A stretch of DNA of 64,000 nucleotides, taken from a virus. The notes under the pieces were generated by a model. It was not told the origin of the DNA. It saw nothing but the letters and a program-made list of their open reading frames with translations, and ran no database searches. The position numbers and the translations under genes were made by a program. Positions within the stretch are counted from its first letter, which is position 1, and the number at the start of each line of letters is the position of its first letter. The DNA is taken from the IMG/VR virus record IMGVR_UViG_3300005613_000020, positions 32,885-96,884 of that record; one strand, 5' to 3'. Of this stretch, positions 6,112-50,482 are shown piece by piece.

Positions 6112-6623
6112 TACTCTAAACTCCCGCTATGTAGTAACATATGGCATGATCTACACATCGTTACTAAATTATCTGTTTCTGAATTTAGCTTATTTCCATC
6201 TATGTGGTGAGCTACAATATATCTGTTCCAACCGCACAAAACACACTCAAATCCATCTCTCTCATAGACTTCTCTTTTAAGCTGCTTTGTAAATGTGTCC
6301 TTATAAGGATTCTTTGATATTCCGCCTTGCCAATTTGAATTCCTATTTCCCTTATGTGTTTCAGAAAGCCTTTTTCTAACTTCTGGTGTGTGAGTCTTTC
6401 CTAACATACCTCTTGGATGACCGTGCTCTTTCCAGTATTTAGATACCCTCTTTTTGAATGTTTCGGGATCAGCTACTTTCCTGTTCTTATATCCGCAAGC
6501 TTTACTGCAACATACGTTTCTTTTCCACTTTCGGCATACAAAAACCTTAGCACATATAGGGCAAATTCTAGCTTCTGTAGGATGTGCTCTCTTCTTATTA
6601 GCTATGGTTCTACCATCTACCAT
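6111..6623 (-). CDS. Free-standing HNH homing endonuclease
   Basis: A 170-residue protein. The N-terminus has a zinc-finger-like Cys cluster (CPICAKVFVCR, then CCSKACGYKNR). The middle (THTPEVRKRLSETHKG, then NSNWQGG) resembles a NUMOD3 DNA-binding module. The C-terminus is an HNH nuclease: ERDGFECVLCG, VAHHIDGNK, NLVTMCRSCH. It is inserted between two tail genes and shares a base with the start of the next gene. It resembles the 14583-15251 product and the nuclease inside the prohead-protease intein. Such enzymes cleave intron- or gene-less alleles and spread themselves; they are not needed for virion assembly. Confidence 0.9.
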   Translation of the reverse strand: MVDGRTIANKKRAHPTEARICPICAKVFVCRKWKRNVCCSKACGYKNRKVADPETFKKRVSKYWKEHGHPRGMLGKTHTPEVRKRLSETHKGNRNSNWQGGISKNPYKDTFTKQLKREVYERDGFECVLCGWNRYIVAHHIDGNKLNSETDNLVTMCRSCHMLLHSGSLE

Positions 6624-28234: not shown

Positions 28235-28235
28235 C

Positions 28236-34324: not shown

Positions 34325-37300
34325 TTAGCTTAGTTTCTTTTTTATCTCTTCAGATATAGTGTTTCCTATCTCTTCAAGATCTAAGTCATCAGGAATTTCA
34401 ACATGTATAGGTGGTAAATCTAAGTCTTTACCTGTTTCATCCTCTTCCCTTAGAATATCATCTATTTGTGGTCTAGTAGTAGATGCAGTAGCATCCTTCT
34501 CTACCTTGTCTCCCCACTTCTTTGGAACTTCTCCGTCCTTTACCTTATGCGTAGCAACAACATCATTATCGCCTTCCTTGAATTCCTCTGCATGTTTATC
34601 GCAGAACCAGGCTCTTCCTCTTCCATCGGCCCAAAGTAATTCCTTTGTAGGAGGTTCGTCACAATGCATACATTTCGATCTTGAGTATTGTTTCTCTAAA
34701 TCCTCATCTTCAGATTCCTCTTGTATTTCCGCAAGAGCATTCCATGCTTTTACTCCCTCTTCTCTAATCCTAGCTCCTCTAAATTGTTCTGCTAAATCAT
34801 CTGCTTGGTCATGGTTATTTGATTCCTTTAATACTGCATAAGCTATTTCCATATCGTCGAAGCCCATGCTAATAAGTTTATCAAAGGTTTCTTTGTCAAT
34901 ATATACTATATCAACATTCTTTCCCTTATTCTTAGCGTGTAAAGCCCTATTATGACCATCAACTATATTAATTTCATTATCACCCACATATCCGACAATT
35001 GGAGGCATATCTTCCGCGTCAGGCCACGACTCTTCAACGAACTCTAAATTGTGCTGATCAGATTCTCTGAAAACTAGATTATTCGGATTTACGTAGTTTT
35101 CCCGCACTTCTCCTCTCGAAATATACGTTTTCCTATCAGGACTTCTCGTAATTTCACCTCTATTATATTCTACATTTCTCTTCTTTGGTCTTATCCACCT
35201 CCTTGTTTCCTCCTTCCATTCAAGTCCAGTTCTTGGTGGGGGTCCAGGAGGACCGGCTCTCACTACTAAATCCTCCTCTTCCGATGTTGTTGGAACATAT
35301 TCAGGACTCTTTATTATCTTTTCTCTATCTGTGTCGGGAGTTGGTTTATCTAATCCCTCTTCATCTTGTTTACGCTCTAGCTCATACTCTTCTGGAACTA
35401 GTTCTATCTTCTCTATTTCTTCTTCCTGCGACTTTTCTGGAGTGGGTAGTGCAGGCCCTACAAAATCAGTTTGTAGTTTCTTCAATCTCAAATCACCCTT
35501 AACGATATCAAGATATGTCTTGCTTCTTTCTTTTCTGTCGCCTTTATAGATAATTGCATTGTTGTCAGATCCTTGGATCTTTCTTACATTCCATCCAGGA
35601 AACTCCGCAGCAAGGTCTACTATACTATCCCAATGATGTCTGTGATCTCCTTGAAGTCTTTTGCCTAGTGGAACGATATGTGCTACATTTTGTCCTGCTA
35701 CTCTTTCGCTTTCATCCAATGCCTTTTGTATGTCCTCGATATGTTCTAATACATGCATTGAAATAATCGTGTCAAATTCATCATCTTCGTATGGAAGTCC
35801 CTTACTGATATCACAATGATCTACAACGATACCATCTTCCTCTACATCCTTTGTTACCATCTCATCAATATCAACTCCGCGAACCCAATAATGAGAATTC
35901 CGTAAAATCTGTAGTAAGCTACCGTTTCCACAACCAAGCTCTAGAACCTTATCGCCTACAATACTTTTCATCAACTCTGCCATGTCAATTATAAGGGGTT
36001 CAGTTGTTGAACCATATCCCCTATCAACCTTCTGTATTACTTCTTCTCCATTCACTTGTTTCAGCATACCAAACTTCTCGCAAGGAACTAACTCAAGCTT
36101 ATATAACGGTATGTGCTCTTTGTTTTTGTCTAGGGAGCTAATATAATTTAGCCTGTTCTTCTGTTCTGGAGATATCTCTCTAGCTAGCCTGACCTTTACG
36201 GCTTCCGACAGCCATGACTTGTCATCTGAACGAATTAATATATCTATCTTACCGTTCTTCCCCTTCTCTATCATGTCGCCAACCATTGATACAGTACAAT
36301 CTGACAACTCTAAAGTCTTTTTAGGAAATACATTGACTGCATCATCTAGAGAAATTATCTCAAGATCTGTAACCTTTTCTTCTTCCTCTGCCTTATCTCC
36401 CTTTATAAGGTTGAAATGAGCCTTTTGGTTTGCTGGATTCTGGACAAAAGAAATCTCAGAAAGTTCTAGTGCTGTAACCTTAAGGTAGCTTCCTCCCCCT
36501 GCTTTCTTAACATCCTCTTTCTCTGTGGCTATTCCAGCAATTGAATAAGATCTAATGCTACCATTCTTGATCTCTTCCCTTACCTTCTCTGGTATCCTTC
36601 CGCTACTATTTATCTCAGAAACCACAAACAATCCTTTGTCTGATATACCTGACCTATAGATATTTCCTTCTTTATTAATGAATAGGGGAATTATCCATCC
36701 TACCTGAGCATCGCTATTATGAAATACAATACCCTTTCCACAATATGTGTGATCTTTGTCTACATTTAGATCATATACATATCCATCATAATGATTTTTT
36801 CTTACAGACAATATCTTGGTTCCATTAGAAACTTGTAGACTATCTTTGGATAACAACAACTCAGTTAAATATGCCTTCCATTTATCCCTATTAAAATTCG
36901 TTTTTCCATGACATTTATCACAAAGAGTTATTAAATTAGATGAAGTAGAATTTTCTTTATCATAATCAATATGATGTACATATAATGATGAATCAACAGA
37001 ATTATTACTAGCACCACATATCATACACCTATTATTATCCCGATTTCGTGTTTCTTTTTTTACCTCTTCGGTAAATCCTATATAAGTAAAATCGATAGAA
37101 TGGCCATCTATATAAGAAGGATTATTCTTTCCTGAGAATGCTAAAGACCTACATTCTTTAGAGCAAAATACTTGGTAGCTCCGTTTCCTTGAAATTTGGA
37201 ATTCCTTCCTGCAATATTTACAGACTAATACCTTAGGTCCTTTATATCTTGGATTCTTAATTCCTGAGACTGAAAATGACAGTCTATTTTTTATCTGTAA

Positions 37301-38023
37301 TGCTTTATCTTTACCGTATATTTCAAATAATGATTTTCCCTTTCTTATATTTGCTGTTATTTTGCTGGGATTTTCTCCTCCTTCTTTATTATCCCACCAA
37401 GGTGTGTGTCCTATAGCATATTCTCTACTCATCTTTAAAATAACATCATTTTGTCTTATATCTTTAGCGTATATCCATCCCCTTTTAGTCAATACCCTAT
37501 GCCTATCGCTAATCCTAATAGTTTCTCCATTATCTAGTTCTAATAAGTTAATGTCTGACACATACCTATATTTATATACATCAAGAACCTCGCATCTTCT
37601 TCCCTCAGAAGAAATGACAAAATCTCCTATTTTGATATCCCCTATTTCCTTATATTTATTATCAAAGCTTCTATCTCCGCGTACTTTAATTTTGGTTTCT
37701 GGGGCAAGGCAATGCATTACAATACCATTTCTAGTTCTGAAGTTCTTCATGAACTTAGAAAACGCTTCCTTCAAAGCGTCTGTTGTAATCAAATGACCTT
37801 GCTTGTCAATAACTTCAACTGAAGCATATCCACCTACGATTAGTGGCTCTCCCTCAAATCCTCTCTCTTTAGCCATATCTAAATACTTTTTGTTGTTAAA
37901 GTATCTATTCAATGTCAATAACTCAGCGTGGGAAATAATATCAACATCAGGAGCAAGCTTTTGTGCTTCGTATAGTGCTAGATATTCTTCAATGTGTTTT
38001 CCTATATCTTTCTTCTCTGCCAT
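34325..38023 (-). CDS. Prohead protease polyprotein (XkdF-like) with intein, methyltransferase and ParB-like modules
   Basis: About 1232 residues from the ATG at 38023 (ribosome binding site TTGGAG). An XkdF-like protease domain (residues 55-535) is split by an intein at 105-436. Visible protease features are VGGYASVEVIDKQGHLITTD, NGIVMH (likely catalytic His), IRSYSIAGIA (likely catalytic Ser) and LSEISFVQNPAN. Then come a class I SAM methyltransferase (motif I VLELGCGNGS, then DDEFDTIISMHVLEHI, residues about 685-825), the motif AGPPGPPPRTGLEWKEETRR at about 923, a ParB-like segment (PPIVGYVGDNEINIVDGHN) and a Cys/His module (CMHCDEPPTKEL, then FCDKHAEEF). Typical prohead proteases have 200-300 residues, so this is an unusual polyprotein, perhaps self-processed. 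Confidence 0.82.
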   Translation of the reverse strand: MAEKKDIGKHIEEYLALYEAQKLAPDVDIISHAELLTLNRYFNNKKYLDMAKERGFEGEPLIVGGYASVEVIDKQGHLITTDALKEAFSKFMKNFRTRNGIVMHCLAPETKIKVRGDRSFDNKYKEIGDIKIGDFVISSEGRRCEVLDVYKYRYVSDINLLELDNGETIRISDRHRVLTKRGWIYAKDIRQNDVILKMSREYAIGHTPWWDNKEGGENPSKITANIRKGKSLFEIYGKDKALQIKNRLSFSVSGIKNPRYKGPKVLVCKYCRKEFQISRKRSYQVFCSKECRSLAFSGKNNPSYIDGHSIDFTYIGFTEEVKKETRNRDNNRCMICGASNNSVDSSLYVHHIDYDKENSTSSNLITLCDKCHGKTNFNRDKWKAYLTELLLSKDSLQVSNGTKILSVRKNHYDGYVYDLNVDKDHTYCGKGIVFHNSDAQVGWIIPLFINKEGNIYRSGISDKGLFVVSEINSSGRIPEKVREEIKNGSIRSYSIAGIATEKEDVKKAGGGSYLKVTALELSEISFVQNPANQKAHFNLIKGDKAEEEEKVTDLEIISLDDAVNVFPKKTLELSDCTVSMVGDMIEKGKNGKIDILIRSDDKSWLSEAVKVRLAREISPEQKNRLNYISSLDKNKEHIPLYKLELVPCEKFGMLKQVNGEEVIQKVDRGYGSTTEPLIIDMAELMKSIVGDKVLELGCGNGSLLQILRNSHYWVRGVDIDEMVTKDVEEDGIVVDHCDISKGLPYEDDEFDTIISMHVLEHIEDIQKALDESERVAGQNVAHIVPLGKRLQGDHRHHWDSIVDLAAEFPGWNVRKIQGSDNNAIIYKGDRKERSKTYLDIVKGDLRLKKLQTDFVGPALPTPEKSQEEEIEKIELVPEEYELERKQDEEGLDKPTPDTDREKIIKSPEYVPTTSEEEDLVVRAGPPGPPPRTGLEWKEETRRWIRPKKRNVEYNRGEITRSPDRKTYISRGEVRENYVNPNNLVFRESDQHNLEFVEESWPDAEDMPPIVGYVGDNEINIVDGHNRALHAKNKGKNVDIVYIDKETFDKLISMGFDDMEIAYAVLKESNNHDQADDLAEQFRGARIREEGVKAWNALAEIQEESEDEDLEKQYSRSKCMHCDEPPTKELLWADGRGRAWFCDKHAEEFKEGDNDVVATHKVKDGEVPKKWGDKVEKDATASTTRPQIDDILREEDETGKDLDLPPIHVEIPDDLDLEEIGNTISEEIKKKLS
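36716..37711 (-). mobile_element. Intein with HNH endonuclease in the prohead protease
   Basis: 332 residues starting CLAPETKIKVRGD and ending GKGIVFHN, followed by Ser. Block A has Cys1, block B is RISDRHRVLTKRGW, block F/G is VYDLNVDKDHTYCGKGIVFHN-like with the canonical His-Asn end. The middle carries zinc-knuckle Cys pairs (CKYCRKEF, CSKEC) and an HNH nuclease (CMICG, VHHIDYDKE, NLITLCDKCH). Splicing would restore NGIVMH-SDAQVGW. Confidence 0.88.
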
Positions 38024-38025
38024 GA

Positions 38026-38256
38026 CTACAACTCCAATTCCCGAAGGTCTAACCAATATAGGTCTTTAATCATATCCCAGCGGGTTCCTTTCAATTCCTC
38101 TCCCTTATGATACGGGAATACCGGCATTCCGCTACTAGTAGCTAGAATTACTCCGTTAACTCTAACAGAATTAAATGGATCTTCAACTTTTTCATAGTAA
38201 TTCCAGTCCAAGACTAGAAAATCAACCTCTCCGTTTTCCTTACTCCTATAACGCAT
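38026..38256 (-). CDS. Small hypothetical protein, 76 aa
   Basis: Residues such as VDFLVLDWNYYEKVEDPF and VNGVILATSSGMPVF suggest a small alpha/beta fold. The ATG overlaps the upstream stop. Its last codons contain the ribosome binding site of the prohead protease gene. Function unknown. Confidence 0.55.
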   Translation of the reverse strand: MRYRSKENGEVDFLVLDWNYYEKVEDPFNSVRVNGVILATSSGMPVFPYHKGEELKGTRWDMIKDLYWLDLRELEL

Positions 38257-38684
38257 TAAAGCATCTCAAAATCATCGTCTGATTTTATAGTTGAAAAAAA
38301 TCCTCTTGACTCTCTCCTTACATCTGATTCATCTTCCATACCAGAAAGAGTATTCAATTCCTTTGTTATGTATCCTATATCGCATGATCCGAATATCGTC
38401 TGTGCGTAACTAGGAGTTCTATGTATAGCAGCTGCAACAGCATCAATTGCTAAAGCCTGATCTACCCTACTTTTTGCTATTGCAAATTGATTTTCAAACT
38501 GAGTTCCTTCTACATTCTTCTTTAGCATTGTAAACGCTCTTTCTACTTGATCATCAGAAGCTCTGTTATTGGCTATGTCCTTATAAATAGCCAAAAAAGC
38601 AGAAGCAGACATACCATCATTTCCAGACCGTGGCCTTCTAACTACTTCTGGATTCCATTTCTTTAAATCGTCTAATGCTCCCAT
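38256..38684 (-). CDS. Helical hypothetical protein of the head operon
   Basis: About 142 residues from MGALDDLKKWNPEVVRR, with GGAGG upstream; the TTG twelve bases earlier would overlap that site. It is mostly alpha-helical (ASAFLAIYKDIANNRASDDQ, FAIAKSRVDQALAIDAVAAA) with an acidic tail. It might be a minor head or scaffold-associated protein; not recognised. Confidence 0.55.
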   Translation of the reverse strand: MGALDDLKKWNPEVVRRPRSGNDGMSASAFLAIYKDIANNRASDDQVERAFTMLKKNVEGTQFENQFAIAKSRVDQALAIDAVAAAIHRTPSYAQTIFGSCDIGYITKELNTLSGMEDESDVRRESRGFFSTIKSDDDFEML

Positions 38685-38706
38685 TATTTCCTCCAACCTA
38701 TGATGA

Positions 38707-38729
38707 GGAGAGGGTTTTACACCCTCTCC
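38707..38729 (-). terminator. G/C-rich hairpin
   Basis: GGAGAGGGT pairs perfectly with ACCCTCTCC around five bases. It is in the gap after the 38748-38954 gene. It lacks a T-tract, like the hairpins near the capsid gene. Confidence 0.5.
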
Positions 38730-38747
38730 CCATTCCTTAAGGATTTA

Positions 38748-38954
38748 TTAGTTTTCCTCTTCTCGTAGCTCTGCTAATCTACGGCATATCAAATTTCTTG
38801 CATCATAGATATCCTGCTCTACGATCTTTTTGAAGCTTTCTCGCTGTGTTTCCTCTGAAAAAGCAGCTTCAATCTTAGTAAGTACTTTTCCAACTAAATG
38901 TGATACTTCTTCCCAAACAATTTCCTGCCATTCTGGTATTCTTGGTTCAGACAT
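38748..38954 (-). CDS. Small helical hypothetical protein, 68 aa
   Basis: MSEPRIPEWQEIVWEEVSHL followed by an amphipathic helix (IEAAFSEETQRESFKKIVEQ) and a charged end. The start has AAGGAGGGAGG. It could be a small assembly factor; function unknown. Confidence 0.55.
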   Translation of the reverse strand: MSEPRIPEWQEIVWEEVSHLVGKVLTKIEAAFSEETQRESFKKIVEQDIYDARNLICRRLAELREEEN

Positions 38955-38967
38955 ACCTCCCTCCTTA

Positions 38968-40929
38968 TTACTCTTCTTCCGGTACGCCTCCGTACTGATT
39001 AAATAACTCTGATGGAACTGCTAGTGCGTCGTCATCGTCTTCTTTGACGAGTTCGAACATCGACCTTTTCTGTCTCTTATTACGTCTCTTTTGTCCAGCC
39101 TCATATGAATCATTTGAGTCATAAAGGAATTGGAACTCTTGCTCATCTAGAAACCTATAAATTCTAGGAATAGGAACAAAAAATCCCATCCAAGTTACAA
39201 CGTCTGTTCCAAACCCAAGCTGCTTAACTGTTACTCTTGCTGGAACACCAATAAATTTACCACCTTCCTTAGTATAAACAGATCCACCTGAATTATGTAC
39301 CAACACGCCATCAGCAAAGAAGTTATGAACTCCTTCTATTTCTAGATCATATACATATTCCTCCTCGCATTCTTCCACACTGTTAACCTTCTTATACACT
39401 AAATCCGCTGGCAAACCTGAGTGGTCTCCTCCTACATAGCAATTCTTGCTTTTAGTCTTATTAGGATAAGCAGAAAATGCATATGTAGTTGTATTGTAGC
39501 TGCACCCATTCACCTCGACATCCCTAGTTCTAGTACTAATATTTGATACATCCACTCCAAGATGTATAAACAACATTCTTATCTTTTTGATCATTGTGTC
39601 GTTTACAGCCTCAAAAACCATATCTTGATTCTTGTTCAAGTGACCATCAGCTGTCAAATAGCCATCAATAAATTCCCGCATATCGTTATCAGGCAAAGAC
39701 ATCACCCAGTCTGGAATATCCTTTGTTCTGGAAGCTCCTGTAAGACCAGCCTCTACCAATATTTCGTAGGCATCCTTTCTGTATATTGATAGAGTTCCTC
39801 CCTTTTCCGAAGCACTATTAAATGAGGGCTTGTAACCAAATACATTCTCGAAAATGCTCTCTAATCTACTTCTTGGATCATCGCTATAACATGCCACAGA
39901 AATTTCATATCCATCACCGTCTCTATTCCTAGACCAACCATCCCCAAGATAATACCCACAAAACCATATGAAATCTTTTATATTATCGTTGTCTTGTGTT
40001 CCGAGAAGCTGGAATAGATTTATCCCTTTCCTAGTTGTTCTTTCTGGTAGCCTGTCCAAGCAAGCTATGGTATCTCCGTTAACAATCTCATTGGCTGGAA
40101 CCCATTTTACTACATTGTGTTTTTTACCAGACCAATCACTAAAAGACTCTACTTTTGCTAGTGGGTGATTTTCAGAACATCTTATAGTTCTTCCCATCGT
40201 CTTTATATCCAAAATCTTCTTCTTGCCCGAGTTTATTGCGCGTTTTACTGTGTGTTTGCTCATCCCAGCACTATGTCCGTATGACCAAACGGTATCCCCT
40301 TCTACCACTTCGTCTATTCGCTTAACCCTACCATCTGCCATAGAAACAAGGGATTCTCCTGGCAAACAATTACCAAAGATCATGGAAGCATTACACATCC
40401 AATATATTTCTTCTTCAATGTATTCCTGCAAATACGTTACATGCCCAGGATTAGCAAATGGTTCATGGAGTAGTGATGCTCCGCATGTGAATATTTCAGT
40501 AAACATCTTAATCTCGTCTTCTGCATCCTTCGGCCACAAATCAGCCACATAAGGATACTTTCTAGGGGTATCGAGCTTAAGTAAAGCCAAATCATGATTC
40601 TTATCATAAGCAATAATATCAGCCATGTGGGTATTGGTTGAAACAACTCTACTAAGATCAATGTAATCAAAAATATCAACACTGACCCTAGATTTTACTT
40701 CTTTCTTGACCTTCTTCTTTATAATTGAATCCCAATCCTCAACCGCCTTTACAGCATCTGCAATAACGTGATGGTTGGTAAGAACAAAAGTCTGGTATTC
40801 ATTTGGGTCTCCTGGATCCTTTGACTTTCTAGCTTCTGAATAAATAATAGTACCACTTCCTCCAGAACTTTCTAGCCTTACTCTACATGTGGGGTACAAA
40901 ACCTTCTCGTGCAATTCCTTCAAATCCAT
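38968..40929 (-). CDS. Trypsin-like serine protease interrupted by an intein
   Basis: 653 residues, about 294 after removal of the intein. The protease has the chymotrypsin-fold triad: His in FVLTNHHVIADAV (about residue 53), Asp in NHDLALLKLD (about 113) and Ser in GNSGGSVY, where an intein at 188-546 separates GN from SGG. After the catalytic Ser come FIGVPARVTVKQLGFGTDVV and a charged tail. It belongs to the HtrA/trypsin-like class and is encoded among head genes, between a gp10-like protein and the prohead protease. It may take part in virion maturation or attack a host target. Finding two different proteases in one head operon is unusual. Confidence 0.85.
   Translation of the reverse strand: MDLKELHEKVLYPTCRVRLESSGGSGTIIYSEARKSKDPGDPNEYQTFVLTNHHVIADAVKAVEDWDSIIKKKVKKEVKSRVSVDIFDYIDLSRVVSTNTHMADIIAYDKNHDLALLKLDTPRKYPYVADLWPKDAEDEIKMFTEIFTCGASLLHEPFANPGHVTYLQEYIEEEIYWMCNASMIFGNCLPGESLVSMADGRVKRIDEVVEGDTVWSYGHSAGMSKHTVKRAINSGKKKILDIKTMGRTIRCSENHPLAKVESFSDWSGKKHNVVKWVPANEIVNGDTIACLDRLPERTTRKGINLFQLLGTQDNDNIKDFIWFCGYYLGDGWSRNRDGDGYEISVACYSDDPRSRLESIFENVFGYKPSFNSASEKGGTLSIYRKDAYEILVEAGLTGASRTKDIPDWVMSLPDNDMREFIDGYLTADGHLNKNQDMVFEAVNDTMIKKIRMLFIHLGVDVSNISTRTRDVEVNGCSYNTTTYAFSAYPNKTKSKNCYVGGDHSGLPADLVYKKVNSVEECEEEYVYDLEIEGVHNFFADGVLVHNSGGSVYTKEGGKFIGVPARVTVKQLGFGTDVVTWMGFFVPIPRIYRFLDEQEFQFLYDSNDSYEAGQKRRNKRQKRSMFELVKEDDDDALAVPSELFNQYGGVPEEE
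39292..40368 (-). mobile_element. LAGLIDADG intein in the serine protease active site
   Basis: 359 residues. Block A is CLPGESLVSMADGRVKRIDE, block B is RCSENHPLAK, the two dodecapeptide motifs are FCGYYLGDGWS and FIDGYLTADGHL, block F is YVYDLEIEGVHNFFADG and block G is VLVHN, followed by Ser. All residues for class 1 splicing are present (Cys1, block B His, terminal His-Asn, +1 Ser). The +1 Ser is the protease nucleophile. Confidence 0.92.
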
Positions 40930-40974
40930 ACTTTTACCTCCTCTTTCTTTTTCTATTTTTTGACTGCATTTCTG

Positions 40975-41199
40975 CTAATCTACCCACTCATCATTTACTT
41001 TGTCCCAATATCGAAACTTTCTAGTTTCCTTGTTACTTTCTATAGCCTCTTCTAAATCAGTACCGTATTCTGCTATTTGAGAAAGAATATTATGACAAGT
41101 TGCTTCAATAGCTTCTAGATTTTTATAGCTATCTATAGCACCCATACTCAGAGCATCTACTACTCTTTTTCCCTCTTCCAAAAACGGCTTTACATTCAC
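40975..41199 (-). CDS. Small helical hypothetical protein, 74 aa
   Basis: MNVKPFLEEGKRVVDALSMG, then an amphipathic helix (LEAIEATCHNILSQIAEYGT). It overlaps the gp10-like gene by four bases. Function unknown. Confidence 0.55.
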   Translation of the reverse strand: MNVKPFLEEGKRVVDALSMGAIDSYKNLEAIEATCHNILSQIAEYGTDLEEAIESNKETRKFRYWDKVNDEWVD

Positions 41200-41792
41200 T
41201 TCTGTACCCCTTTTATCCTCTTTAGATAAAACGATATGTCTTCTGTTAGATGGACTATCTCTTGCTTAGTTGCTTCAAGTAAGAACGGTCTTGCTCTCAA
41301 CTTAGGCCACTTGCTTATTACTCTGTATATTCCCTTTCTTGCATCAATTGGAACTAATCTTCTATCTTTATATTGCCTCTTATGCGCCCTTACCGTGATA
41401 TACTTTGTAGTCCTTTTCCTCCCGACAAACTTATATGGATTAAGTTGTTCCCCCTTATGCGTTCCTAGTGAAGATCCCCCAAGTCTTTCTGTGGAACTAA
41501 TCTCATTCGCAACTCCGGTTACTTTTCTTTTGTGTTGGCTTATATATACTGTCTGAGTCCCATCTATCGCCTTTTCTTCAGAACCATTGTGTACTCTAGA
41601 CGAATAATTTGCTCTATAAGATATCCTAGTTCCTTTGCTTAGATCCTCTTTTACACCCGTGTTCTTAAGATATCCGGTTCTAACCGGACACTTGATTTGA
41701 CTAGTCGCGAATATTCGATCCCCGTTTCTCTGTATCCCTTTCACAATCGCATTTAGGATATTCTTTTTCAATTCCTTCTGTGTTTTCGCCAT
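41196..41792 (-). CDS. HK97 gp10-like neck/tail completion protein
   Basis: A 198-residue basic protein. The motif CPVRTGYLKNTGVKEDLSKG, then RISYRANYSSRVHNG, and the C-terminal RARPFLLEATKQEIVHL are typical of HK97-gp10 (tail-component) proteins, where VxTGxLRxS and RPFLxxA are diagnostic. These proteins join neck and tail. It is unusual for the gene to be over 30 kb away from the other tail genes. Confidence 0.75.
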   Translation of the reverse strand: MAKTQKELKKNILNAIVKGIQRNGDRIFATSQIKCPVRTGYLKNTGVKEDLSKGTRISYRANYSSRVHNGSEEKAIDGTQTVYISQHKRKVTGVANEISSTERLGGSSLGTHKGEQLNPYKFVGRKRTTKYITVRAHKRQYKDRRLVPIDARKGIYRVISKWPKLRARPFLLEATKQEIVHLTEDISFYLKRIKGVQK

Positions 41793-42093
41793 CTCGTAAC
41801 CACCCTACTACCTGATCAAATACCCCTGCTCGTTTGATAAATGCTAGCGTTAATTCACTGCATACCCGGCAATCAGTTTCCGATATCTGTTCGTCAGAAA
41901 ATAAATAACTTCCCTTGTGAAATGCTTCATGAAGCACGTTTACAATTAAGTCATCGTTAGTTCCTTTACCATCTACATAAATCTTATTCATGGTAGGCGG
42001 AGCTTGCCCTTGCAAACCATGCCTTTCCATAATATCGTAGTCAAGAATTATCTCTACTTCTCTACCACCAAACGGAAAATATTTCCTTGGCAT
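41701..42093 (-). CDS. HExxH-type metallopeptidase-like protein
   Basis: A 130-residue protein. VNVLHEAFHKGSYLFSDEQI contains an HEAFH zinc-binding motif, with a possible third ligand in SETDCR downstream. The start of the protein (EVEIILDYDIMERHGLQGQ) resembles small phage and ImmA-like metallopeptidases. It overlaps the gp10-like gene by 92 bases, and its last 30 residues (KCDCERDTEKRG) lie in that overlap. Confidence 0.6.
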   Translation of the reverse strand: MPRKYFPFGGREVEIILDYDIMERHGLQGQAPPTMNKIYVDGKGTNDDLIVNVLHEAFHKGSYLFSDEQISETDCRVCSELTLAFIKRAGVFDQVVGWLRDGENTEGIEKEYPKCDCERDTEKRGSNIRD

Positions 42094-42114
42094 AATTGTA
42101 CTCCTATTCTGATC

Positions 42115-43182
42115 TTATGTCCAACCGTTACGTTGGGATATGACCTCTGGATTATACTTCTGTGCTGGAAGTACATACTCCCTACTATTTTCTATATCTG
42201 ACTTTCCACCCGACTGAATCACAACTCCATATCCTGCTACCTGTGGCCTACCATATGCCTTCTCAACAGGATACGATAGAGGCTTACATAGACAACCTGT
42301 TTCCATTATCTTACATGTTCCAGCTCTTTCATAACTCACGTTAACTTGATGGGTATGCCCCTGAGCAATTATATTAAAGTCATTCAGTCCTAAAGCATAC
42401 TTCCAATCAGTGAAAAATGCAAACGCCTTTGTAACACTTCCTGATCTAGTAAGATATGCATTAGAGACTCTTTCACAATGACAAAATATTGCATCATTAA
42501 TCTGTACAAACCATTGATCAACAGGGATAATATTAGGGAAAGGTCTACTCAAAACTCTATTGATGTCTGAATTTACTAGGAATCTAAGTGACTCATGTAT
42601 GTCCGATGCTTTCTTACTTACCCTATTACTGTGATTTGTATTCAACAGAATTATTACGGAATTAGGAAATTTCTCCGATAAATATTCATACAATCTAACA
42701 GTCCTGTCAAGCTCTATCTCAAACGGGATATTCTCAGACTTAGTAAATCTAGATAAAGCATAGCAATCCATAACTTCGTCCATTACTATTACATCAGCTG
42801 TAAGGTTCCTATTAACTGCGGTTTGAATGAAATCCTGGTTCTCGAACGGTATATGAAAATCCCCAACCTTAAGTATCTTTATTGGATCATCAGTCTCGTA
42901 TTTGACTCCCTCTAGATCAATTACTTTTGGCTCTGCAATCTTTCGATCCTCAAAATACTCTATGTATTTAGTGTAGTATGGCAAGTATAGAGGAATAGGT
43001 TTTTCAGATTCTAATGACTCTAAGTTTACCCCTCCTCCCATAAGCTTTCCATGCACTTGATTTCTTGAGACTACTACTCCTCTCTCCTCCGACAAAATAC
43101 CAGCTATTTCAGCTTCGGTATGCTTTTCAGGGGCCGTTTTTAGCTCAATCAGTCGTCTTGTCAAGGCATCATCCCATATCAT
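42115..43182 (-). CDS. Calcineurin-like phosphoesterase with N-terminal HTH
   Basis: About 355 residues from MIWDDALTRRLIELK, ATG at 43182 with GGAGGAAA. Residues 1-50 form a GcrA/HTH-like domain (HTEAEIAGILSEERGVVVSR). The rest has metallophosphoesterase motifs: KVGDFHIPF, DVIVMDEVMDCY, ILLNTNHSNR in place of GNHE, FCHCER and IAQGHTHQ. Similar phosphoesterases next to packaging genes occur in several phages; the substrate is unknown but could be nucleic acid. Confidence 0.8.
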   Translation of the reverse strand: MIWDDALTRRLIELKTAPEKHTEAEIAGILSEERGVVVSRNQVHGKLMGGGVNLESLESEKPIPLYLPYYTKYIEYFEDRKIAEPKVIDLEGVKYETDDPIKILKVGDFHIPFENQDFIQTAVNRNLTADVIVMDEVMDCYALSRFTKSENIPFEIELDRTVRLYEYLSEKFPNSVIILLNTNHSNRVSKKASDIHESLRFLVNSDINRVLSRPFPNIIPVDQWFVQINDAIFCHCERVSNAYLTRSGSVTKAFAFFTDWKYALGLNDFNIIAQGHTHQVNVSYERAGTCKIMETGCLCKPLSYPVEKAYGRPQVAGYGVVIQSGGKSDIENSREYVLPAQKYNPEVISQRNGWT

Positions 43183-43196
43183 ATATTTCCTCCCTA

Positions 43197-43385
43197 TTAG
43201 TAAAAGTTGGCACAAGACCTGTACTCAACTTCGTCTACCATCCACTTATGTCCTACTTTTAATCCTTTACGACAGCCTTCAAATGCGCAAAACTGGCAAC
43301 ATTCAGGCCATGAGTAGTAGGTAATAGTCTCCTGTGGTATGTCTTCGATAGTCTTTTCTTTATCTCGGGACTTACTAGAAATCAC
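43197..43385 (-). CDS. Small cysteine-rich protein, 62 aa
   Basis: YSWPECCQFCAFEGCRKGLK plus a late Cys (YRSCANFY) gives five or six clustered cysteines, probably binding a metal. The start is a GTG at 43385, downstream of a TATAATATAAG promoter and an AGGAGAGGAG site. Function unknown. Confidence 0.6.
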   Translation of the reverse strand: MISSKSRDKEKTIEDIPQETITYYSWPECCQFCAFEGCRKGLKVGHKWMVDEVEYRSCANFY

Positions 43386-43412
43386 TTTTCTCTAATCTCC
43401 TCTCCTACTTAT

Positions 43413-43436
43413 ATTATAGTCAATCCTACAAAAAAA
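43413..43436 (-). promoter_or_regulatory. Promoter-like element, TTTTGTA-N8-TATAATATA class
   Basis: TTTTTTTGTA, eight bases, TATAATATAAG on the minus strand, with the -10 at 43413-43418. It has the same spacing as the elements at 1975 and 12295. It precedes the Cys-rich and phosphoesterase genes. Confidence 0.6.
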
Positions 43437-43454
43437 CGTAATTCATGGTTACGT
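43430..43454 (-). terminator. Intrinsic terminator after the minor head gene
   Basis: ACGTAA (reverse strand of 43449-43454) pairs with TTACGT around seven bases, followed by a run of seven T (43430-43436). The stop codon of the minor head gene is in the stem. The T-run is shared with the adjacent promoter. Confidence 0.65.
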
Positions 43455-44507
43455 AAAACCTAAGTCAGTTGTATGTATGAAAGAATTATCCCCTGCAAAT
43501 CTGTTTCCCTTCCACTCGTTATCAATTGGCCTTCTCGCCAAAGAGCATCTTTGATTGTAAAAGTCTAAATAAATCTTTCCTTCTATATTCTGCCCTTGTC
43601 GCTCCCACAAAAAGACAGCTTCATCGTATGTATAGGGTCCATTCAATACCCTCCACTTACTAATAGGCTTTGATCTATCGTCCATGGGATTTATCCATAG
43701 GTATTCATAGTAGTATTTGTCTGGGTCTTTACTCCATCCTAACAATCTTCCAATGCCAGAAACTCCAGCTACCTCTGTTCTTACTATCCTCTCCAACTTG
43801 TATCGTTCTGTCTCTACTAATTCTGACATTCTATTTCTAAGCTCTGGTACGCTGTATGCTCCTTCTGGGCCAAAAGATTCCGCTATTATGCCCCGGAATT
43901 GATCTACTAGCTCTGACCCAAACGTTGTTATACTAGCTCCAATTCTGTTAGGGTTTCTTGCTATCCACTCAAGGGCAAGTTTATCTGCTACCTTCATTGC
44001 TGTCTTAACTCCAGATGCGGCTGTACCAGCTATGAACCCTTGTTCATGTAGTTGTCGAAATACTCCATCCAACTTCTCTTGTTGCTTTTTTGTCCAGTCT
44101 CTTACCAGATCCTCCACTCCTGCGATGATTTGAGTCTGTGTCATACCAGGATTAAGATTGTCTAGATACTTGGTAACTACCTTTTCTAGACCTTTGTATA
44201 GATCGGATTCTATTTGTGATCCTAGTTGTTTTGACTTCTTGGGATGTTTTCCAGGAATCTTGAGACCCTTGATCTTGAATCCCTTTTGAATTTCTTCCTC
44301 AATCCATTTGTAGATCTCTTCAGAATAAGGATCAACGATTGGGTCTATCAGGCCATCTCGATTGTTTTTGTACTCGCGAGATTTCTTTATGCACTTCTTA
44401 GTAGACAACAACCAGTTTTTTAACTCACGTAATTTACCTAATCCTTTTCGTTTTCCGTGAGTAGGAGAGAATGTTGTACTAGTAGTCCCTAAATAGGACT
44501 TATTCAC
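43449..44507 (-). CDS. Minor head protein, Mu F/SPP1 gp7-like
   Basis: A 352-residue protein encoded immediately after the portal gene. It has the family signature RIVRTEVAGVSGIGRLLGWS (residues about 235-255) and a C-terminal WINPMDDRSKPISKWRVLNG, NQRCSLARRPIDNEW. The N-terminus is basic. In SPP1, gp7 binds the portal and aids DNA delivery. The start is a GTG at 44507 overlapping nothing but abutting the portal stop, with GAGGAAG as ribosome binding site. Confidence 0.82.
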   Translation of the reverse strand: MNKSYLGTTSTTFSPTHGKRKGLGKLRELKNWLLSTKKCIKKSREYKNNRDGLIDPIVDPYSEEIYKWIEEEIQKGFKIKGLKIPGKHPKKSKQLGSQIESDLYKGLEKVVTKYLDNLNPGMTQTQIIAGVEDLVRDWTKKQQEKLDGVFRQLHEQGFIAGTAASGVKTAMKVADKLALEWIARNPNRIGASITTFGSELVDQFRGIIAESFGPEGAYSVPELRNRMSELVETERYKLERIVRTEVAGVSGIGRLLGWSKDPDKYYYEYLWINPMDDRSKPISKWRVLNGPYTYDEAVFLWERQGQNIEGKIYLDFYNQRCSLARRPIDNEWKGNRFAGDNSFIHTTDLGFT

Positions 44508-47264
44508 TTAATCTTCCTCCCTTTGGTTCTTCTTGTCTGCGTTGAAGTCCCTAAAAGCATCCTCCTCTAGCGGTTGTTTTGATGTACTTGTTTCATGTGG
44601 CATATTAGCAGGATGAGGCGGATGTCCGTCATGTGAATGGTATGTTACTCCTTTCTCAGTATGTGAGTTTTCCTCCCCACTTCCCGGTGGTGCATATTCT
44701 AATCCTTGCTCTCCACCTTCTCCTTCATATTCCTCATACCCTCCTCCTAGTCCTCCCATCATTCCACCCATTTGAGACATCTGCTGTTGCTGTTTTTCTT
44801 CTTCTGTCATTTCAGATACCTTAAAATCAATATCTTCAATTCCAGAGCTTTCAACCAACTCAACCTTGAACCCCATTTGCTGTAGCTGCATTGCTGTCAT
44901 TGTCTTTTGTTGCATGAATTGGGCTCTAGCCTGTTCAGACTTCTCTTCAGGATTCTTAAGAAGTAACTTCCATTCATTAATACCAAAATGATCTAACAAC
45001 CAAGGAAATATCTTATCATTGAATCTCTTTTGGTCTGATTCCACAACACGACTAGTCACAACTAATTGCTGGGTATTGCTAACCACTAAATCACCAGTAG
45101 CAATAACAAATGTATGATCTGATGTTTCAATATCATATACCCAAACCTTGTCAGAATCATCTCTTACAACAATCTTCTTAATTTCGTTTCTTGGTATTAC
45201 TCTTCTACTTGGTCTAGTAAGGATATAAACTGGGTTTTGTTTTTCACTTTCTGGTATATCGTATGCTAGGGATGTCTCGTAACCAAGAGAATTGCATAAA
45301 TACCTTACTCCAGCTATAAGAACAGAATCAACACTCTTCACTTCCCAAGCGTTTTCTTTTCTGCCATCTCCTGCGTAATAACCGTCAATAAAAGCTCTCT
45401 TTACTTCGTCAGTACCATTCAATACCTCCATAGGTACCTTCTTAATATTATACGAAATCTTCTTCTTTCCACCACGCCCGTATTTCTGATCATATTCGCT
45501 CAAGCACATTCTGCGGAGTTCGTTTACAATAGATTTTCCATATATAGTAAGCCTAGAAATTCCCCTGTACTTCTTTATAGTAGTTTTCTTCAAAAATCTA
45601 TCTTCCACTGCTTTTTTCGCTCTCTCAAGGAGGGAAACGTCTATATTAGTCCAATTTGCTCCTGCCTTATTGGAATAAATGTCTCCTTCAGCACACCACA
45701 GCCCTAGCGACCATGCAAATTCCTCTGATATATCGCTGGAAGAATCAACTGTACTAAGCCTGTTTGTTTTGATCCTTGTACCAACTTCAAAATCCCTAGC
45801 GTCTAACCATAAACCGTCTTCGGTTTTCATAGCATGATTTCCTGTGATGTTTACAATACCGTCTCCAGATATAATTGATCTTATTTCGTTTATGTTTCTG
45901 TGCCTATACGCTCCGTTTATATCTGACCAACCGCCTTCAGTCCATACCTCAAGATTTTTTGGTGTTTTCCTATACCAAGTATCCGAATGCTCCTTATACA
46001 ATGATGCAATAGGTATAATGTCTAAATATTTGCCGTCTACTCTAACATAGATAGGAGTTTCTCCTGTAACAGACTGAGTTGCAATACCACCTGAAGTTTC
46101 TTGTGCTGACATCCAAATCGGAGATACACCCCACATAGCAGCAATTCTATCCCGAACATCATTCTTGATCGGAAGATAATCCGTCTCTAGTAGATTGTGA
46201 AATAGCTTAACGAAATCAACACGACCTCTTGATCCTTGTCTTGCTGAATAAGCAATCATAGGCATGTAATCAGGATCAACACGCATCTTTGCTTCTATGT
46301 TTGCTCTCTCCCTTCTAAGACCTTCGGGATCATCAGTAGCTACAAGAAGCATCCCAGCAGGCAACTTACGTTCAAAGAAATATCGGTAAATAGTCTTGTC
46401 CATACCCACTAGTGATAATATCTTGTCATACAATGTAATTAAAGGGGAAACTCCAAATGTCTCCATAACAGAAAACTTGCTTAGATGTAAAACCTCTTCC
46501 TCAAGAAGGTATATTGGATCGGTTCCCTGGTGATAGTATATCCACATAACAGGAACTAAATCCGCTTTACATTTCTTGCATTTGCCTTTTTTTGGTTCCT
46601 TCTCATCTCTATGAAAGTAACATGTAAATGTCTTATTCTTTGGAAGTCCCTTATCATCCAAATCTAAATCCATCATTGCAGGATGAAGAACACGAATTTC
46701 TTTTGGCTTGCTCATTACTTTGTTTCCTGCATTAATATATTCCTTTCTAACATAAAGGAACGCATCATCTGCCCAGTTTAAGCAATCCTCGTACGATCCG
46801 AATAATTCGTTTAGGGATTGTCCAAATATGTTCGCATCTTCCATAAAGGGGGTAAGCTTGTCTTTCTGCTTTTCATCGGGTTTTCTAAATTCTTTTTCTC
46901 CACATTTTTCGCATTCCTCAACCACTTTCTGGTATTCAGACCCACACTTCTCGCACTTAAGTTCAAATTTAGGAGACCAAATATACCCTCTCCTAAATAC
47001 CTCATTTCTAATAATCGAAATTGGGCTACGAACTTCAGCTACAGTTAGATATAAACTCCATAAGTCTAATAGAAGATGTCTTCTATATCCAACTCTTTGC
47101 TGAATCCACGCATTAGTGAATCTATCAGATCCTAACGCCTTCGGAGTATACTTACTACCTTCCTGCTTAGACATTTGATCAAAAAAATCTACAAACTGAT
47201 CTAGTTTGTGCATCTCTGAATATTTGTGTGTAACTCCAGGAACAAAGTCTGATAATTTAGCCAT
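44508..47264 (-). CDS. Portal protein with intein
   Basis: About 918 residues, 585 after removal of an intein at 398-730. The portal has a stem/wing region (LLLDLWSLYLTVAEVRSPIS), an extra zinc knuckle pair (CEKCGSEYQKVVEECEKC, and CKKCKADL), the portal core (EEEVLHLSKFSVMETFGVSP, DRIAAMWGVSPIWMSAQETS) and a Met/Gly/Glu-rich C-terminus ending in a His-rich segment. It forms the dodecameric DNA channel. The start ATG at 47264 has AAGGAG. The intein sits in the helix before TQQLVVTSRVVESDQKRF, the crown/tunnel region. Confidence 0.85.
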   Translation of the reverse strand: MAKLSDFVPGVTHKYSEMHKLDQFVDFFDQMSKQEGSKYTPKALGSDRFTNAWIQQRVGYRRHLLLDLWSLYLTVAEVRSPISIIRNEVFRRGYIWSPKFELKCEKCGSEYQKVVEECEKCGEKEFRKPDEKQKDKLTPFMEDANIFGQSLNELFGSYEDCLNWADDAFLYVRKEYINAGNKVMSKPKEIRVLHPAMMDLDLDDKGLPKNKTFTCYFHRDEKEPKKGKCKKCKADLVPVMWIYYHQGTDPIYLLEEEVLHLSKFSVMETFGVSPLITLYDKILSLVGMDKTIYRYFFERKLPAGMLLVATDDPEGLRRERANIEAKMRVDPDYMPMIAYSARQGSRGRVDFVKLFHNLLETDYLPIKNDVRDRIAAMWGVSPIWMSAQETSGGIATQSVTGETPIYVRVDGKYLDIIPIASLYKEHSDTWYRKTPKNLEVWTEGGWSDINGAYRHRNINEIRSIISGDGIVNITGNHAMKTEDGLWLDARDFEVGTRIKTNRLSTVDSSSDISEEFAWSLGLWCAEGDIYSNKAGANWTNIDVSLLERAKKAVEDRFLKKTTIKKYRGISRLTIYGKSIVNELRRMCLSEYDQKYGRGGKKKISYNIKKVPMEVLNGTDEVKRAFIDGYYAGDGRKENAWEVKSVDSVLIAGVRYLCNSLGYETSLAYDIPESEKQNPVYILTRPSRRVIPRNEIKKIVVRDDSDKVWVYDIETSDHTFVIATGDLVVSNTQQLVVTSRVVESDQKRFNDKIFPWLLDHFGINEWKLLLKNPEEKSEQARAQFMQQKTMTAMQLQQMGFKVELVESSGIEDIDFKVSEMTEEEKQQQQMSQMGGMMGGLGGGYEEYEGEGGEQGLEYAPPGSGEENSHTEKGVTYHSHDGHPPHPANMPHETSTSKQPLEEDAFRDFNADKKNQREED
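45075..46073 (-). mobile_element. LAGLIDADG intein in the portal protein, Ser1/+1 Thr type
   Basis: 333 residues, from SVTGETPIYVRVDGKYL to TGDLVVSN, followed by Thr. Block B is ITGNHAMK, dodecapeptides are LGLWCAEGDIY and FIDGYYAGDGRK, block F is VYDIETSDHTFVIATG. It differs from the canonical form in two ways: Ser instead of Cys1 and Ser-Asn instead of His-Asn at the end. Confidence 0.88.
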
Positions 47265-47278
47265 ATCCAACTCCTTAG

Positions 47279-47662
47279 CTATCGTCCTAGTTTTCTAACT
47301 TGCCGAGTTCCTACAATCTTCACCACGGCATCGATAGCGTATCTCTCTAGATCTTCTGTAGATTGTTCCTCATAGAGTTCCTCATCAACAACGTTTTCCA
47401 CGGAAGACTCTTTATTTGTTTCTATACTCTTCTTACCAATACCTAATCTATTCCTCTCATCTAGAAGAGCCATAACTGCTAACCCAGGTAATATAGTAAC
47501 CGCAGGGTGATCATCTGGAATCTCGTCGTCCAAATTTGAGATAGTTACTATAGCTTCATGTTGTAAGTCTAAAATTCTCCAAACATCTGTCAGTTCATTA
47601 TATAGGACTGCATATCTACCGTCCATTCCACCTAACTCTGGAATCATACTAAATCTTGACAT
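47279..47662 (-). CDS. Hypothetical protein between terminase and portal
   Basis: A 127-residue protein. The first 75 residues (GRYAVLYNELTDVWRILDLQ, PAVTILPGLAVMALLDERN) look alpha/beta; the rest is acidic, ending in a short basic helix (RYAIDAVVKIVGTRQVRK). The start has GGAGGAATAG. It could be a packaging accessory; not recognised. Confidence 0.6.
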   Translation of the reverse strand: MSRFSMIPELGGMDGRYAVLYNELTDVWRILDLQHEAIVTISNLDDEIPDDHPAVTILPGLAVMALLDERNRLGIGKKSIETNKESSVENVVDEELYEEQSTEDLERYAIDAVVKIVGTRQVRKLGR

Positions 47663-47665
47663 TTT

Positions 47666-50482
47666 CTATTCCTCCTTCCATTCTCCTTCTTTTTTTACCC
47701 ACTTGGAACCACACATAAGACACTTTCTCTTCTCTGCTTCGTCTGGGGTAACTCTAAGAGCACCATTACGATATATGTATTCTCCATTCTCACATCGGCA
47801 ACATACTTCGATTGGTGGTTCTTTCTTATATGTCAGCTTGTCCTTCATTATCTTTTGGACATCTATACTATTATACCCCATTCCAAAATGTTTCTCAAGT
47901 AATGATGCTTCTTTGGTGGGTCCATATTCATCCGATGGTGCTGTTTGCAAATTCCCTATTTCAGTAAACTTGTTTGAAGAACCTTCATAGAAACAAAGAG
48001 CTAGAGAGTCTCCTTTGTCGGGAGATTTAAGACCCCTCTTCTTCATATCTGACTTACTCTCAATAGCTAGCTGACCCCTTGGATTGTAAACATATTTTAT
48101 CCTGGTAATCTGCTCTATCAAATCTGTGTCATTAGGAATTCTTATCTCTTTGTTTTTGAACTTTAGCCGAAGATTCCAAAATATTTCCGCCCTAAGATTT
48201 GCAAAATGCTCTGAATCAAATGCTCTCTCAGCAACATTTACACCACACACATCTAGTTCTAATTGGTTTAGCCTATCTACTACACCAGCACCTATTCCAA
48301 TAATATCTATATTCTTGTGAGTAGGGTTATAATCACTTATAGCACTCATCATACGACCAACGGTATACATAGTGTCCTCTTGTGACCATTCCTGTATTTC
48401 TGTGACTACTTCGTCTCTTCTAGCTGTTAATACACTGCTATCGTCACCAAAACGGGCTATATCAAGACCTAGCCCTACTACAGGATCTTCTGGGGGAGTA
48501 AACTCATCTAGGCTACTGTATACGGCCCTTTCCGCCCAAGCCAATGGTATCAGTGTGTCTACTGTATTAGTTGGAAATTCTCCTTTTACACGAACTTGGT
48601 AAAGAGGGCTCTCAATTCCCCAATCATAAGCCATCTGAGCAGCCCATTTAGGAGATACCAAATATGGTCTAGGCAATACTGAATCCCCTAGAAGATTCTC
48701 CCAAGAACCATCTAGTATGTTCTCCTCTGTAATTCCAAATTTAGCAAAATTAGGTGTATCATAAGCACTTACATGATATGTTTTGTACGCTTTGCTCTTG
48801 AAACTATCTCCAAACTTTGTAGCCTCATCCGTAGGATTTCCAATTAAAAGAAGCTTAGATGTTTCTCCAGCAGCTATGATACCTTCGATAGCCTCATAAA
48901 TAGGAACTTCAACACCAGAATTTCCAGACCACATGCAATATCCATTTCTTCTAGTTAATATAAGATGATACGGAGGTACATTAACGCAATACACATTTCC
49001 TTCATAGTGTATAATATCTATTTCTTCTTTCTTAACTACAAAATTTTTCTTTCCTTTCAGCCTGAGTACTTGGTAATGGTCTTTCGATGCTTTGGTTTCT
49101 TTTCCCCGAATATTCTTCTTCGTACCTTTTTTCACTGCTACTCTATAGCTTGAATCATAACCTAATTTCAATAGCATTTCTTGTATATCGTCCCTCATCT
49201 TGCTAGAAGAAGTACAATAGACAATAACCCCGTTACCATTGTCATAACCATCACCCATAGCAAAACTATTGAGAAAAGCTTCTATTATATCTGGTGTTGC
49301 GTTTTTTATTTCTTCAGGAACATATTTATCAATTGATCTTCCATACTTACTTAATTCCAAAACTAATTGTTTAGAACCTATGGTTATCTTATTGTGTTTC
49401 TTACGCTCATTAGGATAAAATCCTATGTTATTTATAGAGTCAACTATTCTATCCCAATTAGATCTATTTTTGGTATAACTCTGATTTATAAACGCTGTAT
49501 AACCGTCACTAGAACAACACCCCTCGGATAAATACCATCCCATAAATACAGCCCAATTTTTCATGGAAATCTTTTTTTCTGTATAGTCGATTCCTCTTGT
49601 TCTTGCTAACTCTTTCAACACTTTAGTATCCTGTCTCGTTCCAATCCAAGAGCATTTCTTATCTATCTTAAATTGAGGACTACTTATATCCTTCATGGGC
49701 TTTAATTCCCATTTTTCTTTCTTTGTTAATGGATTTGAAATCCACATCTTATGACTAGGAGTAACGCAAAAATTACGACCCGGCTTTTTACATTCATACA
49801 TATCACCGTTATACGGATATATATAATACTCTTCGGGTTTCTTAAAAAATGCCACATTAGTTATCGGATTCTTTGTCAATACTTCATCTTCTTCTGTTAA
49901 ATCACCAAATAATTTCCATCCGTGATTAGTTAATATCTCTGTGTCGCAGCTATGACAGGCTTCGTCCACGATTACGAGAACATTGGTATTATGAAATCCT
50001 TGAAAGGCCACCAAATTATGCTCATCTGTTGAAAACCCTATTCCAAACCACTTCTCCTTATCACTCATATCAAGTCGTGTAGTAAGTAGTCTACCTCCTA
50101 AAGGTTTCCTTGCTTTATGATAAAGCGAAGCTATTTCATTCCATAGGATCTCTCTAACCTGTCTTCCTGTTGGAGCAGTAGTTACTACAGTTGATGGCCT
50201 ATACGTATGAAGGAAATAGAGAACTACACAAGCTGCTAGGTTTGTCTTACCAATAGCATTACATGACTTTACCGATACTCGTTCTTCTTTGTCAATTGCT
50301 CTAACTATTTTCTTTTGCTCTTCCCAAAGGCTTATACCTAGAACTTCTTCAACAAACTCTACAGGTCGTCCTCTATAACTAGAATAGTCAACATCAGATA
50401 CCTCTCCAAGCTCTAAAAAGTCAGCTAACTTCTCAAATCCAGTAGATACTGATACAAGACTACTTTTCTTCACATACGTCAC
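47666..50482 (-). CDS. Terminase large subunit with intein
   Basis: 938 residues, about 592 after removal of an intein at 176-521. ATPase: Walker A-like SCNAIGKTNLA (residues 73-83), Walker B VLVIVDEA (168-175), coupling-type motif KLLLIGNPTD. Nuclease (RNase H fold): GLGLDIARFGDDSSVLTARR, then IIGIGAGVVDRLNQL and GDSLALCFYE with acidic residues. A C-terminal zinc pair follows (CCRCENG, CLMCGSKW). It pumps DNA into the prohead and cuts concatemers. The intein lies directly after the Walker B DEA. The start is a GTG overlapping the TerS stop. Confidence 0.9.
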   Translation of the reverse strand: MTYVKKSSLVSVSTGFEKLADFLELGEVSDVDYSSYRGRPVEFVEEVLGISLWEEQKKIVRAIDKEERVSVKSCNAIGKTNLAACVVLYFLHTYRPSTVVTTAPTGRQVREILWNEIASLYHKARKPLGGRLLTTRLDMSDKEKWFGIGFSTDEHNLVAFQGFHNTNVLVIVDEACHSCDTEILTNHGWKLFGDLTEEDEVLTKNPITNVAFFKKPEEYYIYPYNGDMYECKKPGRNFCVTPSHKMWISNPLTKKEKWELKPMKDISSPQFKIDKKCSWIGTRQDTKVLKELARTRGIDYTEKKISMKNWAVFMGWYLSEGCCSSDGYTAFINQSYTKNRSNWDRIVDSINNIGFYPNERKKHNKITIGSKQLVLELSKYGRSIDKYVPEEIKNATPDIIEAFLNSFAMGDGYDNGNGVIVYCTSSSKMRDDIQEMLLKLGYDSSYRVAVKKGTKKNIRGKETKASKDHYQVLRLKGKKNFVVKKEEIDIIHYEGNVYCVNVPPYHLILTRRNGYCMWSGNSGVEVPIYEAIEGIIAAGETSKLLLIGNPTDEATKFGDSFKSKAYKTYHVSAYDTPNFAKFGITEENILDGSWENLLGDSVLPRPYLVSPKWAAQMAYDWGIESPLYQVRVKGEFPTNTVDTLIPLAWAERAVYSSLDEFTPPEDPVVGLGLDIARFGDDSSVLTARRDEVVTEIQEWSQEDTMYTVGRMMSAISDYNPTHKNIDIIGIGAGVVDRLNQLELDVCGVNVAERAFDSEHFANLRAEIFWNLRLKFKNKEIRIPNDTDLIEQITRIKYVYNPRGQLAIESKSDMKKRGLKSPDKGDSLALCFYEGSSNKFTEIGNLQTAPSDEYGPTKEASLLEKHFGMGYNSIDVQKIMKDKLTYKKEPPIEVCCRCENGEYIYRNGALRVTPDEAEKRKCLMCGSKWVKKEGEWKEE
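48920..49957 (-). mobile_element. LAGLIDADG intein in the terminase ATPase
   Basis: 346 residues, from CHSCDTEILTNHGWKLFGDL to YCMWSGN, followed by Ser. Block B is CVTPSHKMW, dodecapeptides are FMGWYLSEGCC and FLNSFAMGDGYD, the C-terminal blocks are VYCVNVPPYHLILTRRNG and WSGN. The penultimate residue is Gly, not His. Removal restores VDEA-SGVEVPIYEAIEG. Confidence 0.9.

Follow-up and report, generated by a model that had tools for sequence, protein, structure and literature searches.

Four divergent inteins in the head genes of a metagenomic virus

Several inteins in one phage genome have been described for mycobacteriophages of cluster C1 (ET08, Gizmo), among which ET08, like the virus studied here, carries at least five (PMC3029335). 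The five of ET08 are scattered over 155 kb, in a nucleotidyltransferase, the portal protein (gp79) and proteins whose function was not known at the time, whereas the virus described here has four within 16 kb of head genes (PMC3029335). As in our virus, inteins of mycobacteriophages are found in the portal and the terminase and at active centres, including a Walker B site of TerL (TerL1-e) (PMC5050341). Gly, Lys or Ser replaces the penultimate His in mycobacteriophage inteins, and Gly or Ser does so in two of ours. However, their first nucleophile is always Cys, in contrast to the Ser1 of our portal intein, and the table of mycobacteriophage inteins lists none in a trypsin-like or S78 protease, unlike here (PMC5050341). 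Core genes including that for TerL are also heavily invaded in the zeta group of crAss-like phages (PMC7886860) and in Jug phages (PMC12363816). In the zeta phages, group I introns predominate, numbering up to 14, and there are no more than three inteins (PMC7886860), whereas the present virus has inteins only, with no Rfam intron match at the gathering threshold.

In cyanophage Mic1, two inteins are described in TerL, as in a sister virus of ours, but in that one gene only, and a function as packaging sensors is put forward as a proposal (PMC7156551). Serine proteases are interrupted elsewhere too, namely by inteins of chloroplast and bacterial ClpP (PMC5784728, citing Wang and Liu 1997). ClpP represents an unrelated protease family and is not a phage maturation protease; the likeness noted here is that the host protein is a serine protease. 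Our literature search, which was incomplete, returned no description of an intein either in a phage protease of the trypsin-like kind or in a prohead protease of family S78; the two protease insertion sites of the present virus appear to be new.

The DNA analysed here (the window, 64,000 nucleotides) comprises bases 32885-96884 of a 96,884-bp IMG/VR virus record, which is a single metagenomic contig. Four of its head genes, encoding TerL, the portal, a trypsin-like protease and the prohead protease, had been predicted from the sequence to carry in-frame inteins, and all four inserts are present with exactly the predicted boundaries and are free of stops (Table 1). As also predicted, three contain LAGLIDADG_3 domains and the fourth an HNH domain. 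The original prediction further held that they are not one element copied four times. Indeed, when the record's five inteins, these four and one in DnaB, are compared in pairs, identity is 18-26%; together with the presence of two endonuclease types, this rules out a single recently copied element as the source of all inserts. PHROG matches confirm the two free-standing HNH genes that had been claimed, and the window thus encodes six endonuclease domains, in line with the predicted minimum of six homing endonucleases. Both free-standing genes are 33-34% identical to the HNH domain of the prohead protease intein. The fifth intein lies outside the window, in the DnaB helicase gene of the same virus (L005:7545-9992; intein L005:8226-9419); it is 398 aa long, of LAGLIDADG type, and interrupts the P-loop (GK/S, the slash marking the insertion point here and below). 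The same virus encodes, also outside the window, an IscB-like protein of 416 aa with RRXRR/RuvC and HNH domains (L005:16916-18166).

Table 1. Positions of the intein-containing genes and associated features in the window
Feature	Position	Strand	Details
HNH endonuclease gene, free-standing	6111..6623	-	PHROG match; 34% identical to HNH of prohead protease intein
HNH endonuclease gene, free-standing	14583..15251	-	PHROG match; 43% over 107 aa to the 6111..6623 gene
S78 (HK97-type) prohead protease gene	34325..38056	-	911 aa after splicing, plus intein; family profile matches
Prohead protease intein, 332 aa, HNH	36716..37711	-	Cys1...His-Asn, Ser+1; directly after conserved His (H/S)
Codon of conserved, probable catalytic His	37712..37714	-	Last residue of N-extein; His in 83/83 homologues
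Trypsin-like serine protease gene	38968..40929	-	294 aa after splicing, plus intein; triad His54/Asp113/Ser188
Codon of protease catalytic Ser, also +1 splicing nucleophile	39289..39291	-	Ser invariant in 32 homologues
Protease intein, 359 aa, LAGLIDADG	39292..40368	-	Cys1...His-Asn, Ser+1; splits GN/SGG
Portal gene	44508..47270	-	Exteins 587 aa after splicing, plus intein; homology to intein-free portals L095-L102
Portal intein, 333 aa, LAGLIDADG	45075..46073	-	Ser1...Val-Ser-Asn, Thr+1; site Q/TQQL
TerL gene	47666..50482	-	Spliced exteins 592 aa, plus intein; homologous to TerL including those of vir525 and phiEf11
TerL intein, 346 aa, LAGLIDADG	48920..49957	-	Cys1...Ser-Gly-Asn, Ser+1; site DEA/SG (Walker B)
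UDG-PolA DNA polymerase gene	58436..60832	-	Both sites occupied in PolA of sister virus G055 empty here

Searches of Pfam, PHROG and PDB gave matches to known inteins. At every junction the exteins align without a gap to intein-free homologues (32-86 per site), and the terminal splicing residues are present in all four inserts; taken together, these observations exclude chance. Group I introns were considered instead of inteins and rejected, given open frames throughout and the negative Rfam result. PI-PkoII, PI-SceI and the TliVMA intein were matched by a profile built from related inteins. In the order TerL, portal, protease and prohead protease, the first residue is Cys, Ser, Cys and Cys, block B reads TPSH, TGNH, SENH and SDRH, the inserts end in GN, SN, HN and HN, and the +1 residue is Ser, Thr, Ser and Ser. 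Judged by these terminal and block B residues, all four inteins are of the class 1 type, while class 3, which has no nucleophile at position 1 and a WCT triplet, was rejected because each has Cys1 or Ser1. Penultimate His is limited to the two protease inteins. The Gly of the TerL intein and the Ser of the portal intein at this position do not exclude them from class 1, since mycobacteriophage inteins vary here and a version with Gly splices (PMC5050341). In those phages the His is often lost; the RDF intein with Gly splices completely and its His mutant slowly, and TerL inteins, one of them at Walker B, splice readily (PMC5050341). Both acidic residues of the LAGLIDADG motifs are retained in the TerL, portal and protease inteins.

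The TerL intein interrupts Walker B, an ATPase motif of the protein. Its junction shows zero gap in 86 other, intein-free homologues among the matches listed, and a seven-sequence TerL alignment likewise covers it. The contig of sister virus G055, which has an intein at this site, is not among the matches listed for the TerL alignment scan, and the lack of a Walker B-site intein there is a sampling effect. (Single-sequence scans of IMG/VR with TerL and MCP gave no matches, in contrast to alignment-based scans, which did work.) From its first to its last residue, the TerL intein matches the TerL intein of Gordonia phage GMA6 and an intein of Prevotella phage Lak-A1, and its Pfam Intein_splicing match is weak. 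Its LAGLIDADG motifs are GWYLSEG and FAMGDG; read by eye, the block F Cys is present and no W occurs at B12.

The portal junction is free of gaps against 61 intein-free homologues. By profile the portal intein is the weakest of the four: the splicing domain falls below Pfam Intein_splicing detection, while the terminal motifs are present and LAGLIDADG_3 matches at E 2e-10 (motifs GLWCAEG and YYAGDG). The best PDB matches of its structural model are the TliVMA intein and PI-PfuI, with the splicing-domain part modelled poorly (pLDDT < 50). One long portal (L104, 1033 aa) was rejected as an intein carrier, its extra length being a C-terminal fusion. Relatives of the portal include those of archaeal viruses such as halovirus HCTV-5. 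Four free-standing HNH genes surround the terminase and portal of HCTV-5 (L014:7010-14939), and its head module is therefore a target for homing endonucleases too. DnaB and the UDG-PolA fusion would suggest a bacterial host for the present virus, whereas these portal relatives are from archaeal viruses. The GTDB genomes searched for the protease family contained no relative, hence no host or provirus was found there.

The trypsin-like protease matches the Trypsin_2 profile at E 1e-7, and His54, Asp113 and the junction Ser are invariant among its homologues. Its junction (IFGN/SGG) is gapless against 32 intein-free homologues, and from family knowledge on trypsin-like proteases we take the junction Ser to be the catalytic one. 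This +1 Ser would thus serve as splicing nucleophile first and as protease nucleophile afterwards. The intein has LAGLIDADG motifs GYYLGDG and YLTADG. In an AlphaFold model of the full precursor, both halves of the protease were good and the intein part was unusable. In the prohead protease, zero gap was found at the junction in 83 intein-free homologues, in which the conserved His is followed by Ser (82/83) or Thr (1/83); this His is presumably catalytic, by family knowledge on S78 proteases. The HNH domain of its intein contains a zinc Cys and the motif HHID...NLITLCxxCH. Both protease inteins have significant Pfam Intein_splicing matches, with splicing regions recognised by Pfam/NCBIfam. 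GC3 of the prohead protease intein is 21.7, compared to 31.4 in the host gene, suggesting that it arrived recently; the inteins of TerL, the protease, the portal and DnaB have GC3 values near those of their exteins.

Comparison with other IMG/VR viruses revealed both empty and differently occupied sites. Portals 44-45% identical to ours (L095-L102) and proteases 41-54% identical (L096-L099, L122-L148) lack an intein at the respective site, and gene order is similar in some of these relatives. Scanning with the Walker B junction as a pattern returned one contig of 30,431 bp (L239), that of sister virus G055 (IMGVR_UViG_3300035701_000190). It is syntenic with the window over primase, PolA, RecA, NrdJ, TerS and TerL and ends before the portal and protease genes. 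G055 (L239/L241/L242) has four inteins: two in TerL, at Walker A and Walker B, and two in PolA, at motif A (DY/CQIEL, HNH type) and the O-helix (NFGV/CYG), with a LAGLIDADG-like match in one of the PolA pair. The Walker B inteins of the two viruses are 41.9% identical, compared to 43.2% for the exteins, and both retain the LAGLIDADG acids. The three additional sites of G055 are all empty in the window genes, leaving Walker B of TerL as the only site in common. Two members of the lineage therefore carry inteins in numbers of five and four or more, respectively, and are known to share one site. The TerL of L122/G027 (L237:705-3167), which belongs to another TerL family, has an intein in the nuclease motif (GHAD/SFW) that is related to our TerL intein (E 4e-30), and the NrdJ ribonucleotide reductase of G037 (L236:4484-7450) has an HNH-like intein adjoining a conserved motif (ISE/C...HN/CSGG). 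The differing sets of occupied sites in these four viruses indicate an intein-rich lineage with site turnover, in which the intein at Walker B of TerL is probably the most ancient. Pfam intein counts in relatives are lower bounds, as G055 with its four inteins gives one sub-threshold Intein_splicing match, and junction counts were used instead.

Based on these data we interpret the inserts of this tailed virus, itself a member of an intein-rich lineage, as four independent homing inteins, whose splicing is probably fast and constitutive and imposes no checkpoint (probability about 0.85). Each intein would be translated as part of its host protein and excised by the class 1 pathway, in which Cys1 or Ser1 undergoes an acyl shift, the +1 Ser or Thr performs the transesterification and Asn cyclises, leaving intact TerL, portal, trypsin-like protease and prohead protease. 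The endonucleases would cut the empty allele of a related co-infecting virus, with repair copying the intein in. Conserved catalytic motifs would offer targets that persist across relatives and from which an intein could be lost only by precise deletion; splicing would render the insertion harmless, while the endonuclease would spread it. Retained endonuclease motifs are a mark of homing elements, and the persistence of both LAGLIDADG acids in TerL inteins that are 42% identical is an argument for past selection on cutting. However, the similar divergence of the TerL intein and extein also fits long vertical inheritance and counts against purely transient homing, which need not produce it.

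Since the insertion point lies within a catalytic motif in three cases out of four, active TerL, portal and proteases would require splicing, and it is difficult to see how a precursor could work before its intein is removed. The precursors would then be inactive and head assembly would depend on splicing, and we consider a dependence of packaging and maturation on it, as originally predicted, to be a sound inference. The alternative that the inserts are never removed, and are either additional domains of proteins that function with them or an artefact of the assembly, might draw on the single metagenomic contig that is our source. It is most improbable, given that the inserts split GN/SGG, DEA/SG and H/S at catalytic residues and have splicing residues at both ends, and that the TerL insert recurs at the same site in the independent contig L239. 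There is a lesser but real chance that some inserts have decayed or been domesticated, with splicing kept, the endonuclease inactive and inheritance vertical, a possibility that overlaps with homing and does not exclude it. Co-inheritance predicts the similar identities of the TerL intein and extein to G055, and the GC3 of four inteins near that of their exteins points the same way; in contrast, both LAGLIDADG acids are kept in all three inteins and in the 42% identical G055 copy, and the GC3 of the HNH intein suggests recent arrival.

The original prediction went on to propose that four separate splicing events could act as a timing or environmental checkpoint. Such a checkpoint would involve slow or conditional splicing (redox, metal, temperature, DNA), restricting the joint onset of packaging and maturation to a late stage or to suitable conditions. 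Four inteins in one late module, three of them interrupting catalytic motifs, agree with this idea, as does the presence of at least four of the five inteins of the record in this stretch (P ~0.003 post hoc for placement uniform by length; 0.001 with inteins removed), although such clustering is partly expected, head genes being among the conserved hallmark genes. Inteins of DnaB and RadA are documented to splice conditionally (PMC6195587, PMC7360933, PMC5790916), and the sensor role proposed for the Mic1 TerL inteins is of the same kind (PMC7156551). However, the chemistry differs between Cys1/Ser+1 in three inteins and Ser1/Thr+1 in the portal, and the penultimate residues are Gly, Ser, His and His, so that a common trigger is not expected. 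In addition, the homologous genes of relatives do without inteins, the sister virus has a different set with one site in common, the endonucleases look intact, and the phage TerL inteins that have been tested splice readily (PMC5050341). We therefore regard a checkpoint as improbable. Equally doubtful is the idea that the protease and prohead protease inteins are zymogen locks, whose slow splicing would silence the maturation proteases until the procapsid is built, with ex-parasites now timing maturation; here the catalytic Ser, also the +1 nucleophile, and the catalytic His would become available only once the intein leaves.

Whether active-site inteins are selfish or regulatory is an old question, for which the virus provides a natural test: within a single pathway it has several inteins that differ in chemistry, intein-free homologues exist, and a protease Ser has a dual role. 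The new inteins, with Ser1/Thr+1 in one case and no penultimate His in two, may prove useful as tools.

Several composite proteins were noted in addition. In the prohead protease ORF, the protease is joined to a class I methyltransferase domain resembling MetW, and then come ParB-like and Cys-rich regions (these two read by eye); the product is an unusual composite maturation protein. A motif GPPGPPP.G.EW.EETRRW occurs once in this ORF and three times, one copy being degenerate, in the ORF at 26471-28258. In G055, a RuvC-like resolvase has an N-terminal HNH domain (L239:374-1570), whereas the resolvase of the window (53725-54219) stands alone. A further G055 gene (L241:9385-10560) begins with a DUF4406-like part, as recognised by eye, that continues in frame into a LAGLIDADG domain and may represent a truncated or fused host gene.
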